Positions 1,881 to 50,247 of a stretch of 64,000 bases of DNA are shown one piece after another (within the stretch, counting starts at the first letter, position 1; each line of letters opens with the position of its first letter). Source of the stretch: Candidatus Woesearchaeota archaeon (GTDB taxonomy: Archaea; Nanobdellota; Nanobdellia; Woesearchaeales; JAFGLG01); contig JAFGLG010000007.1 in NCBI GenBank assembly GCA_016928155.1, forward strand, positions 184,973 through 248,972. Direction: 5' to 3'. Made by a program: the position numbers and the translations under genes. A model generated the notes under the pieces. The model was given only the letters and a program-made list of their open reading frames with translations, was not told where the DNA came from and did no database searches.

Positions 1881-2122
1881 GGATATGACCTCTGGGATTA
1901 TTCAGCAGTGGTTACTATAGTGTTTTTATACTTTATAAATCTTTTGTTATTTCAATAACAGATGCATCATCAAAGACAGCAGAAAGCAAAAAGGATATTA
2001 AATGATACAGAAATAATAAAGCAATAATACAACAAGAATCTAATAATATGACAATGACATAGCAAATAATATAAACCAATACCAAAATCGACAGCTTTTA
2101 AAGGGCCCGTGGTCTAGCGGTT

Positions 2123-2138
2123 ACACACGATGCTGCAA
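2123..2138 (+). other. D-loop intron of tRNA-Val
   Basis: A 16-nt insertion in the D-loop. The 4-bp helix GCGG (2117-2120) with CTGC (2133-2136) is flanked by bulges TTA (2121-2123) and AAA (2137-2139). Cutting between the second and third base of each bulge restores GTCT-AGCGGTTA-TGAC, a normal D-arm. Confidence 0.72.
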
Positions 2139-2155
2139 ATGACGTCACCCTTACA

Positions 2156-2170
2156 AGCAGATGCTGAGTG
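2156..2170 (+). other. Canonical 37/38 intron of tRNA-Val
   Basis: Fifteen nucleotides between A37 and A38. Bases C32-A35 (CTTA) pair with TGAG near the intron 3' end, flanked by bulges CA|A and TG|A. It is unusually short for an archaeal tRNA intron. Confidence 0.78.
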
Positions 2171-2192
2171 AGGTGAATGTCCCCAGTTCGAT

Positions 2193-2229
2193 AGCATCAA
2201 ACATGACAGCAGATGTTTCCTGCAGAAAA
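2193..2229 (+). other. T-loop intron of tRNA-Val (59/60)
   Basis: A 37-nt insertion in the T-loop. T54-C56 pair with GAA and G57 faces A, with 5' bulge AT|A and 3' bulge AA|C. The intron contains the hairpin AAACAT/ATGTTT. The position and length match the T-loop intron of tRNA-Lys in this window. Confidence 0.65.
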
Positions 2230-2266
2230 CCTGGGCGGGCCCATTTCATGTTCGTGAGACAACAAA

Positions 2267-3104: not shown

Positions 3105-3318
3105 AACAAGGTGGGATTATCCCAACTTAATAAATATTATACTTATTCTATACCTATTTGCCTATTGCATCATAAATCTGAACATCTGGTATTAAGAATT
3201 TGCCCATTGCACAATCAATGATTTTGTTATCACATGTAAAGTTTATAAATTATAGTGGGTAAACTATTTAAATGGCCTATTATAGTGCTAGAATCCATGG
3301 GCCTGTAGCTTAGCCTGG

Positions 3319-3345
3319 AGCTGCGGCATGATGCTGCACGGGCAA
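3319..3345 (+). other. D-loop intron of tRNA-Ile
   Basis: A 27-nt insertion bounded by a BHB: GCCT (3313-3316) pairs with GGGC (3340-3343), bulges GG|A and AA|T. Its body is a 7-bp hairpin TGCGGCA-TGA-TGCTGCA (3322-3338). It shares GATGCTGCA with the D-loop intron of the nearby tRNA-Val, which hints at common descent. Confidence 0.72.
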
Positions 3346-3363
3346 TGGAGCACTGCTCTTATA

Positions 3364-3391
3364 TGGGCATGTTTCATACAGCTTCTAAGTG
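3364..3391 (+). other. Canonical 37/38 intron of tRNA-Ile
   Basis: 28 nt. CTTA (positions 32-35 of the tRNA) pairs perfectly with TAAG near the intron 3' end, flanked by two 3-nt bulges cut between the second and third base. Confidence 0.8.
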
Positions 3392-3461
3392 AAGCAGTGG
3401 TCGTGGGTTCAAATCCCGCCAGGCCCACTTTTTTCAAATAACCCACTCAACATGAATCAAG

Positions 3462-3994: not shown

Positions 3995-4741
3995 TCATTT
4001 TTTCTTATTGTATGTCTCGAATGCCCTCAAGATCTCAAGCGGCAGAGCGAACACGACAGTATTGCTCTGGTCACTGCTGATGTCATTTATGCTCTGCAGT
4101 GTCCTCAAATGGAGAGCACCAGGGACCTTGCCGAGTGTTGCAGCAGCCTTTGCCAGATTATGCGCAGCAATAGCGTCGCCATCTGCCTTGATAATCACTG
4201 CTCTCTTCTCCCTCTCTGCCTCTGCCTCCTTGGCCATTGTCCTCTTCATCTGCTCAGGAAGCTCAATATGCTTAAGGTCAACGCTGTTCACCTTGATGCC
4301 CCATGGATCTGATGCTTTATCCACAATCATCTGGATCCTCTTGCTGATCTGATCCCTCTGGCTCAGGAGCTCATCAAGCATTACCTCACCGACGACATCC
4401 CTCATGGTGGTCTGTGCAAGCTGAGAGACAGCATATCCATAATCCTCCACCTGTATTATCGCATGCTTAGCATCTGAGACTTTGTAATAAAGCACAGCAT
4501 TGACCCTGACAGAGACATTATCCTTTGTCATGGCATCCTGGTCAGGCACATCAATTGTCCTTATCCTGATATCGACCCTTCTCCAGGTCTGGAATATCGG
4601 GATGACAATCCTCCATCCCGGGTTCATGATGCCGGAATACCTGCCAAGAGTGAACTTGACACCTCTCTCGTATTCGTTGACGACCTTGAGGCCTGTCAGA
4701 ATAAAGATTATAACAACAATCACCAAATATACCCAAATCAT
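3995..4741 (-). CDS. SPFH/band-7 (stomatin-like) membrane protein
   Basis: 248 aa. One N-terminal membrane segment (residues 2-18) is followed by the band-7 domain (VVNEYERGVKFTLGRYSG, then RTIDVPDQDAMTKDNVSVRV) and a coiled, charged C-terminal helix. Archaeal members scaffold membrane microdomains and often pair with an NfeD-type protease partner, which is not adjacent here. A strong ribosome-binding site (GGGGGTG) precedes the ATG. Confidence 0.9.
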   Translation of the reverse strand: MIWVYLVIVVIIFILTGLKVVNEYERGVKFTLGRYSGIMNPGWRIVIPIFQTWRRVDIRIRTIDVPDQDAMTKDNVSVRVNAVLYYKVSDAKHAIIQVEDYGYAVSQLAQTTMRDVVGEVMLDELLSQRDQISKRIQMIVDKASDPWGIKVNSVDLKHIELPEQMKRTMAKEAEAEREKRAVIIKADGDAIAAHNLAKAAATLGKVPGALHLRTLQSINDISSDQSNTVVFALPLEILRAFETYNKKK

Positions 4742-36774: not shown

Positions 36775-36832
36775 TTTGACTCACAAGCTTTGTTTTTGCC
36801 CATATCATCAGCGAAATATGGGCCGGACGGGA

Positions 36833-36869
36833 CTTCCTAAACCACTTTTTTGAAATTTTTAGTGGCCTT
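36833..36869 (-). other. T-loop intron of tRNA-Lys (59/60)
   Basis: 37 nt, the same length and position as the T-loop intron of tRNA-Val. Contains a CCACT/AGTGG hairpin. The central helix is 3 bp plus a G-A pair. Confidence 0.65.
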
Positions 36870-36891
36870 TTCGGACCCGCGACCACCTGAT

Positions 36892-36919
36892 TCCCTCAAT
36901 TTCGCCTTATTACGAAATT
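36892..36919 (-). other. Canonical 37/38 intron of tRNA-Lys
   Basis: 28 nt. CTTT (32-35) pairs with GAGG (two G-U pairs), bulges TA|A and GA|A, and the intron body is a perfect 7-bp hairpin. Confidence 0.72.
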
Positions 36920-36966
36920 TAAAAGTCAGGTGCTCTACCAGGCTGAGCTACCGGCCCAAATTTAAA

Positions 36967-37059
36967 CGCCCTGGCCGGGATTTTCGTTTCTTGATCGAAT
37001 TCGAACCCGGGTCGAAGCCTCGACAGGGCCTCATGATGGACCGACTACACTACCAGGGC
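36967..37059 (-). tRNA. tRNA-Asp (anticodon GUC) with T-loop intron
   Basis: Acceptor GCCCTGG/CCAGGGC, G73, anticodon loop CTGTCGA, T-stem CCGGG/CCCGG. A 19-nt intron (36981-36999) sits at 59/60 with a perfect 4-bp central helix TTCG/CGAA and 3-nt bulges AA|T and AA|T; removal gives the textbook T-loop TTCGAAT. There is no intron in the anticodon loop. It lies 9 nt upstream of tRNA-Lys. Confidence 0.88.
36981..36999 (-). other. T-loop intron of tRNA-Asp (59/60)
   Basis: 19 nt. The clearest T-loop BHB in the window: TTCG pairs with CGAA between two 3-nt bulges. Confidence 0.78.
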
Positions 37060-37295
37060 ATTTTATCTAAATAAGGCAAAACTTCGGCCTTTCGACTAAA
37101 AAGCGATATTTCCAGCTTTAGAAGTCAAAAGAACCTTTTATGGCCATAACTGCTCCAAATTTCTTTTATTTTTAAATGTTATGTTTTTTGCTTTTATTGA
37201 TTTAAAAATCATTTTTGATCAGTACTTCACCACATTTATCATTATTATGTAGTAACTATAGAAATATTTATAAAAACTTCCTAAAGCCCATGCTC

Positions 37296-49946: not shown

Positions 49947-50051
49947 CCAAACACCTCTTTAAGTATGATATGAAGGTCAAAATGAAGCTTTGTTTTTAAA
50001 TGTTATTCAGAAATACGGGACCCCATGAAGATAAATATCCCCGCCCCCGGA

Positions 50052-50100
50052 ATTTCAGGAAACCAAGCAGGTGCATCTCTGCTTCTCGCTTGGCTCAGCA
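50052..50100 (-). other. T-loop intron of tRNA-Tyr (59/60)
   Basis: 49 nt, with a perfect 4-bp central helix TTCA/TGAA between two 3-nt bulges. Confidence 0.75.
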
Positions 50101-50122
50101 TTTGAACCAGGAACCTTTCGGT

Positions 50123-50173
50123 ATCAGCTGGCTGTGGGTCATCCATTCCCGAACGGGATTGTCACACAGAACG
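50123..50173 (-). other. Anticodon-loop intron of tRNA-Tyr
   Basis: About 51 nt between G37 and A38, placed by the conserved stem and loop. CTGT (32-35) can pair with ACAG, but that leaves ten bases before the 3' stem, so the exact processing path is uncertain. Confidence 0.55.
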
Positions 50174-50247
50174 CTACAGCCGAACGCTCTAGCCGTTGAG
50201 CTAGGCGGGGATTGTGAGCAGATTTTTTCTAAAATCTTCGAAAAATA

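Follow-up and report, generated by a model that had tools for sequence, protein, structure and literature searches.

The stretch of woesearchaeal DNA analysed here (64,000 nt; hereafter the window) holds six intact tRNA genes, which were recognized by eye and with a scan for T-arms: tRNA-Val(TAC), tRNA-Gly(GCC), tRNA-Ile(TAT), tRNA-Lys(TTT), tRNA-Asp(GTC), and tRNA-Tyr(GTA). Four of these genes (Lys, Asp, Tyr, and Val) carry an insert between positions 59 and 60 of the T-loop, and each insert can be folded into a bulge-helix-bulge (BHB) motif by pairing of its 3' end with bases 54-57 of the T-loop. A preceding sequence-only reading of the window had proposed this recurrence at exactly 59/60, perfect central helices in the Asp and Tyr genes with three base pairs plus a G-A pair in Lys and Val, and a conserved T-loop that itself supplies the 5' strand of the helix; gene parsing, the T-arm scan, and the BHB parses bear out these points, with coordinates that fit. 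Its remark that any T-loop could host such an intron stands as well, given that UUCR at positions 54-57 is nearly universal.

The tRNA-Lys(TTT) gene (36819-36957, minus strand), which in relatives occupies the same place upstream of rpoH-rpoB, contains a 28-nt intron at 37/38 (36892-36919) and a 37-nt intron at 59/60 (36833-36869) with the central helix TCCG/AGGA (three base pairs plus G-A) and the 3' bulge AG/T, the slash marking the predicted cut. Next to it lies the tRNA-Asp(GTC) gene (36967-37059, minus strand), whose single intron at 59/60 (19 nt, 36981-36999) forms the helix TTCG/CGAA with the 3' bulge AA/T; ARAGORN misreads this gene as a 75-nt tRNA at 36986-37060. The tRNA-Tyr(GTA) gene (50038-50210, minus strand) possesses a 49-nt intron at 59/60 (50052-50100; helix TTCA/TGAA) and a 51-nt intron at 37/38 (50123-50173), for which sequence comparison found a homologue in the Tyr intron of locus L205 (score 17). 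Three inserts are present in the tRNA-Val(TAC) gene (2103-2243, plus strand): a D-loop of 24 nt (2116-2139), compared with the usual 7-11 nt here, that holds an insert with approximate ends, a 15-nt intron at 37/38 (2156-2170), and a 37-nt intron at 59/60 (2193-2229) with the helix TTCG/AGAA (three base pairs plus G-A) and C at position 60. The T-loops of the remaining two genes, Gly-GCC (2267-2338) and Ile-TAT (3299-3427), are ordinary; the Ile gene (plus strand) has a D-loop insert and a 37/38 intron. Only two of the six window tRNAs exceed the Rfam cut-off and ARAGORN likewise finds two; the Tyr-GTA and Val-TAC genes were missed by both.

The genome from which the window derives (the source genome; 1.48 Mb, 99.7% complete) was surveyed by combining 30 loci from a search with RF00005 with loci from pattern searches, all of which were interpreted visually and by means of a parser able to place introns at three sites (the D-loop, 37/38, and 59/60). 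This parser was written because ARAGORN, which has no model of D-loop introns, assigned wrong isotypes after excision to several genes with such introns (Asp was called His, and Glu was called Phe). Thirty-nine tRNA genes were identified in this way, a list that is incomplete, since it lacks Met as well as several Leu, Ser, Gln, Arg, and Pro isoacceptors. A 59/60 intron is present in 18 of the 39: Lys-TTT, Asp, Tyr, Val-TAC, His, Ala-TGC, Ala-GGC, Arg-TCT, Arg-GCG, Cys, Leu-GAG, Gly-TCC, Glu-TTC, Ile-GAT, and four odd genes of class II. The idea that only the four window genes are affected is thereby ruled out and, as the survey of this genome and its relatives suggested by the sequence-only reading revealed, the site is used far beyond them.

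From the source genome and its relatives, we catalogued 178 distinct introns at 59/60, for which T[T/C]C[A/G]A after a G, a full T-stem and acceptor, at least three of four helix pairs, and a parser score of at least 17.9 were demanded. Three weak parses and an ambiguous one among 154 were dropped before counting, as were later all those scoring below 17.9; Asp and Lys are over-represented in the catalogue because 80 loci had been chosen beside rpoB. The introns are 11-94 nt long and display the geometry expected of a BHB motif, in which a central helix of about 4 bp, built from the exon as 5' strand and the 3' end of the intron, is flanked by two 3-nt bulges: four pairs are formed in 149 of the 178 and three in the other 29 (the scan itself required at least three), and the 3' bulge reads AG/T in 128. 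Furthermore, position 57 covaries with the sixth-last intron base. Among the 173 introns in which the other three helix pairs are formed, G57 is combined with C at intron position -6 in 43 cases and A57 in none of 102 (Fisher p = 4.9e-22), an absence that is informative because the scan would have let an A.C mismatch through; the trend has the same direction when Asp introns or Lys introns are considered separately. At least three consecutive pairs are formed by the intron bases beside the bulges in 42 of the 178, compared with 10 expected from shuffles. Removal of the introns restores tRNAs that ARAGORN (with its intron option) recognizes, 168 of 178 after excision versus 15 before, a gain favoured by the parser's own selection for restored tRNAs; the anticodon called by ARAGORN agrees with that of the parser in 111 of 178. 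Geometry, covariation, and recovery by ARAGORN are what a spliced BHB intron would predict. Group I introns were considered and rejected in view of the lengths of 11-94 nt and the lack of a group I match in the window.

Introns of this type are widespread in the order. The pattern GGTTCRAAN{10,40}RARTCCCG has matches in 35 of 60 genomes sampled from the order, and its long form in 19 of 60. A stricter T-loop motif was found in 75 of 147 genomes overall (61 of 103 within the order, 14 of 44 in the other orders of the class), and its reversed control matched 3 of the 147; this comparison, together with the covariation of position 57, leads us to reject chance inserts. A short T-loop pattern discriminates weakly in the source genome, with 303 places (100 of them among the matches listed) versus 283 for the control. 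The Asp-Lys pair upstream of rpoH-rpoB was followed through the 80 best named loci retrieved with the window rpoB'' as the query; most of these are labelled Woesearchaeota, the rest mainly Nanoarchaeota, Nanoarchaeia, or DPANN, and one carries the label Aminicenantes and is presumably misbinned. A 59/60 intron is present in 41 of 50 parsed Asp genes and in 20 of 40 parsed Lys genes; neither gene was obtained at 18 of the 80 loci. The introns at these orthologous sites are mostly dissimilar in sequence, which points either to fast turnover or to many origins.

The putative machinery for the removal of such introns is encoded in most of these genomes. A PF01974 (EndA) gene occurs once per genome in all 20 genomes searched; PF02778 lies in the same gene, with one further weak match in genome G015. 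The EndA protein of the source genome (174 aa) has as its nearest PDB entry the alpha chain of the Nanoarchaeum equitans enzyme (3iey_A; 8e-38), followed by 5x89 and 1a79, the last of which we take to be the M. jannaschii enzyme. It also matches 3iey_B (the beta chain, NEQ261) at 2.9e-16, so that a comparable second subunit would probably not have escaped detection. To judge from gene content, the enzyme looks homomeric. An RtcB gene was detected in 17 of the 20 genomes, and the source genome thus has both EndA and RtcB. RtcB was not found in G004, G006, and G011, which do have EndA; an assembly gap, a divergent ligase, or loss may be responsible. EndA types are treated in PMC6379350 and PMC12397907. 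Relaxed BHB motifs are linked to EndA of the (alpha-beta)2 or epsilon2 type in the account given by PMC6379350, and the single EndA gene counts, on that account, against the interpretation that we prefer below.

Relatedness among the introns was assessed by an all-against-all comparison of their interiors (the final six bases being trimmed off), for which dinucleotide shuffles served as the reference. At a score of at least 16, the T-loop introns yielded 12 pairs from different isotypes and five from the same isotype, with 0.0 expected; the 12 pairs stem from about four families, are not independent, and include one between the odd class II genes L027 and L029. At a score of at least 12, 29 pairs of T-loop introns were observed versus 3.2 expected, among many thousand comparisons. 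The introns at 37/38 gave three same-isotype pairs and no different-isotype pair at a score of at least 16, and those of the D-loop three and one, respectively; two different-isotype pairs connect D-loop with T-loop introns, the T-loop intron of L120, which is of ambiguous length, being similar to the D-loops of L188 and L106. The comparison suggested by the sequence-only reading has hence uncovered homologous T-loop introns across isotypes, and its view that the introns spread by a common mechanism finds support in some families. It finds none in the four window introns, no pair of which reached a score of 14, so that their shared origin is unsupported and recurrence at one position is not in itself proof of common descent. 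An independent origin of these four is possible, and most introns in the collection have no detectable common sequence.

The most prominent family, F1, has a consensus of about TATCCCRGAGGG...ATCCCTCNGGATTTGRGAG and a length of about 39 nt. A search of 352 genomes with its pattern, which demanded AA before the element and would thus miss copies in other contexts, yielded 21 copies distributed over 11 genomes; G169 has four of them, and G233 and G042 have three apiece. All 21 stand directly after TTCRAA or TCCGAA and are followed by T; the reversed pattern found none. In every copy, the 3' end before the bulge is U-G-R-R. Sixteen host genes were typed firmly and represent eight amino acids: Phe-GAA (4), Lys-TTT (3), Ala-GGC (2), Glu (2), Gly (2), Met (1), Leu-CAG (1), and Ser-TGA (1). 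One more host (L286), with a poor 5' acceptor strand, was typed by eye only as Phe-GAA, and four of the 21 (L277, L278, L280, L283) have no isotype assigned. Two copies in G169, residing in Gly-TCC and Ser-TGA genes, are one base apart, and the bases upstream of TTCRAA differ between the two hosts; in the Ser gene (L289), these bases are the end of a further intron of about 97 nt at 53/54, and ARAGORN calls Ser-TGA once both introns are excised. The three Lys genes with F1 (L232, L244, L246) lie at the conserved place beside rpoB, which indicates that the intron moved there and not the gene. Outside the 21 copies, the intron of L303 (Arg-TCT) is significantly F1-like (18.5 versus 10.5) and that of L304 (Arg-TCG) is borderline (13 versus 11); two further candidates, L305 (Trp) and L306 (Arg-CCT), scored below the best shuffle and were not counted.

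A second family, F2, has six copies in five of 352 genomes: in the source genome it occupies Arg-GCG, and in the other four the host is Glu-TTC or Glu-CTC. The Ser-TGA gene of G292 (L307) contains a relative of F2 whose similarity is significant (score 20 versus 11.5 for the best shuffle). Arg-GCG is the only gene of the source genome whose intron belongs to a family clearly common to other isotypes: compared with F2, the introns of its Arg-TCT and Cys-GCA genes scored a non-significant 10 and 12 (best of 2000 shuffles, 11.5 and 12), and the two score 14 with each other (0.1 expected over all pairs of T-loop introns). Introns are also shared between Gly-CCC and Asp in G015 (score 24.5) and between a Gly-GCC gene (typed by eye) and the neighbouring Ile-TAT gene in G010 (score 27). 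In one case, the similarity crosses positions: the 53/54 intron of the Ser-TGA gene L289 in G169 resembles the 59/60 intron of the Gly-CCC gene L111 in G007 (33 versus 15.5 for the best of 2000 shuffles). Together, these similarities are good evidence that some families were copied between tRNA genes.

Judged from the sequences, the 59/60 inserts are thus very probably archaeal BHB tRNA introns, some of which appear to have been copied from T-loop to T-loop. In the precursor, bases 54-57 (UUCR, or UCCR in some Lys tRNAs) would pair with a run of four intron bases, which is separated from the 3' splice site by two further bases; the T-stem would serve as the outer helix, and the intron would often form an inner hairpin. 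EndA is predicted to cleave each bulge 3' to its second base, between base 59 and the intron and between the intron and base 60, and RtcB would join the exons. Any intron ending in U/C-G-A/G-A/G plus two bases could then be spliced from almost any tRNA; the U-G-R-R of F1, for instance, can pair, with wobbles, to UUCA, UUCG, and UCCG, so that a single intron may be acceptable to nearly all of them. Since every T-loop offers nearly the same half-site, repeated colonisation would be expected. Some introns (F1, F2, and others) would have been copied whole between T-loops and in one case between 53/54 and 59/60, and most of the others would have diverged beyond recognition or arisen separately.

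An alternative history is that of independent insertions only, in which chance duplication or slippage at T-loops is retained whenever the new 3' end pairs with UUCR and nothing is ever copied. Most intron pairs are indeed no more alike than shuffles, the window introns contain no pair at a score of 14, and lengths range from 11 to 94 nt; however, F1 and F2 are long and closely similar across amino acids, even within the single genome G169, and independent insertion without copying is therefore decidedly unlikely. While F1 refutes it as the sole process, most single introns may have arisen in this manner. Very improbable in our view is a scenario of remoulding, namely gene duplication followed by a change of tRNA identity with the intron staying in place. 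The Glu isoacceptors of G045 (L126, L140) and the class II pair L027/L029 do share introns and look like gene duplicates, but the acceptor and T-stems of the F1 hosts differ (GGGCCGG/GCGAG in Lys, GCGTCGG/CCGGG in Gly, GCCGCTG/GCGCG in Met), and the Lys genes with F1 sit at the Asp-Lys-rpoH-rpoB locus, where the Lys genes of other relatives have either no T-loop intron or unrelated ones; on these grounds, we reject remoulding as a general explanation. That the inserts are retained in mature RNA, or that the genes are pseudogenes, is scarcely credible: a truncated class II copy (L056) does exist, but position 57 covaries with the intron, and the affected genes are the sole copies found of the Asp, Lys-TTT, Tyr, Cys, and Glu tRNAs in a genome that is 99.7% complete. 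On both counts, pseudogenes were rejected.

If copying between T-loops is accepted as the preferred reading, its route may have been one of the following two or another. Ectopic recombination or gene conversion between T-arms at the DNA level, with TTCRAA and TCC(C) as microhomology, is a realistic candidate to which we would lend somewhat less than even credence; it accords with the flanks of the 21 F1 copies, which are short and present in most tRNA genes, and PMC4090602 places the transposition in Thermoproteales at the DNA level. Speaking against it, exon bases outside TTCRAA vary between hosts (mostly G53-C61, yet A53-U61 in the Phe genes L269 and L271), so that the converted tracts would need nearly the precision of the intron. 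Rather doubtful is the notion that the T-loop introns are tiny non-coding mobile elements of about 35-50 nt that move intron-precisely, perhaps by pairing in trans with the T-loop of another tRNA and being spliced in by EndA and RtcB, with subsequent fixation in DNA through reverse transcription or recombination.

Sugahara (2008) and Fujishima (2010) reportedly described multiple-intron tRNAs and tRNA-intron transposition in Thermoproteales. Position 59/60 is listed as a non-canonical intron site together with 20/21, 25/26, 53/54, and others in PMC4090602, which names Crenarchaeota and Nanoarchaeota as rich sources of such introns, and transposition in Thermoproteales is covered there and in PMC4033280. 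Our findings resemble the Thermoproteales system in that non-canonical BHB introns occur, up to three per gene, and that similar introns are found across isotypes, there taken as transposition (PMC4033280, PMC4090602, PMC8450103), and also at different positions (L289 versus L111). They differ in the host lineage, in a single EndA gene (20 of 20 genomes) instead of an alpha-beta pair forming an (alpha-beta)2 enzyme, in the heavy use of 59/60, and in one family of about 39 nt spread over eight amino-acid identities. With archaeal 59/60 introns in general they have position and motif in common; the passages of PMC4090602 on such introns mention neither Woesearchaeota nor T-loop intron families. 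The Asgard archaea Atabeyarchaeia and Freyarchaeia, with introns in 92-95% of their tRNA genes, often at non-canonical positions, provide another intron-rich set outside Thermoproteales, but belong to a different lineage, and transposition is not discussed in the pertinent part of PMC11291895. Intron gain in a tRNA gene has likewise been described for the tRNA-Thr of Caldiarchaeum, there through a mobile element and in connection with a 1.8-kb stretch whose predicted product is a recombinase (PMC3293823). Group I introns in rRNA, those of Woesearchaeota included, are the subject of PMC6125680. A literature search, weak on subscription journals, found no published account of T-loop introns of Woesearchaeota. 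As far as these sources go, the position and, in Thermoproteales, tRNA-intron transposition were already known; the woesearchaeal setting, the single family in eight amino-acid identities, and the copy across positions appear to be new. The system is ordinary in kind, consisting of BHB introns, and seems unusual in extent.

If correct, our interpretation would extend large-scale tRNA-intron transposition beyond Thermoproteales to a large uncultured DPANN lineage with an apparently one-gene splicing endonuclease, and F1, with its 21 copies in 11 genomes, some near-identical within one genome, would offer a compact system for studying archaeal tRNA intron gain. There are consequences for annotation as well. 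tRNAscan-SE 2.0 is described as accommodating non-canonical introns by means of BHB models drawn from Crenarchaeota plus Euryarchaeota, and from Thaumarchaeota (PMC8450103). Over 60 genomes, RF00005 matches at E <= 0.001 number 6-42 per genome; the single-contig, 100% complete genome G009 has only 13 at this cut-off, the rest probably being hidden by introns. As standard tools miss these intron-bearing tRNAs, the seeming absence of a tRNA from such a genome should not be taken as a sign of gene loss or host dependence.

Several unusual genes were noticed in the course of this work. Class II tRNA-like genes with a long variable arm and a 59/60 intron occur in the source genome (L024, L027, L029, L051) and in relatives (L092, L112, L115, L146, L147, L160, L168, L299, L311); they mostly have G73, and their anticodon loops (GAT, GAA, GAC, GCC) are not those of Ser or Leu. 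They look like extra genes, since ordinary Ile-GAT (L003) and Phe-GAA (L009) genes are also present in the source genome; Nev-tRNA or allo-tRNA come to mind as possible counterparts. Truncated class II copies without D-arm and anticodon arm lie just upstream of L027 and at L056 (contig C10 of the source genome, G000, around 4432-4560, minus strand), the latter with an intact T-loop BHB. By eye, an extra insert is seen near positions 25-27 in Ser-GGA (L020) and Arg-TCG (L021) of the same genome, and the 37/38 intron of its tRNA-Trp gene (L017) contains ATGATG- and CTGA-like motifs, presumably as in box C/D guide RNAs. Two His-GTG genes (L007, L023) coexist in the source genome, one intronless with a mismatched acceptor stem and the other with a 59/60 intron.
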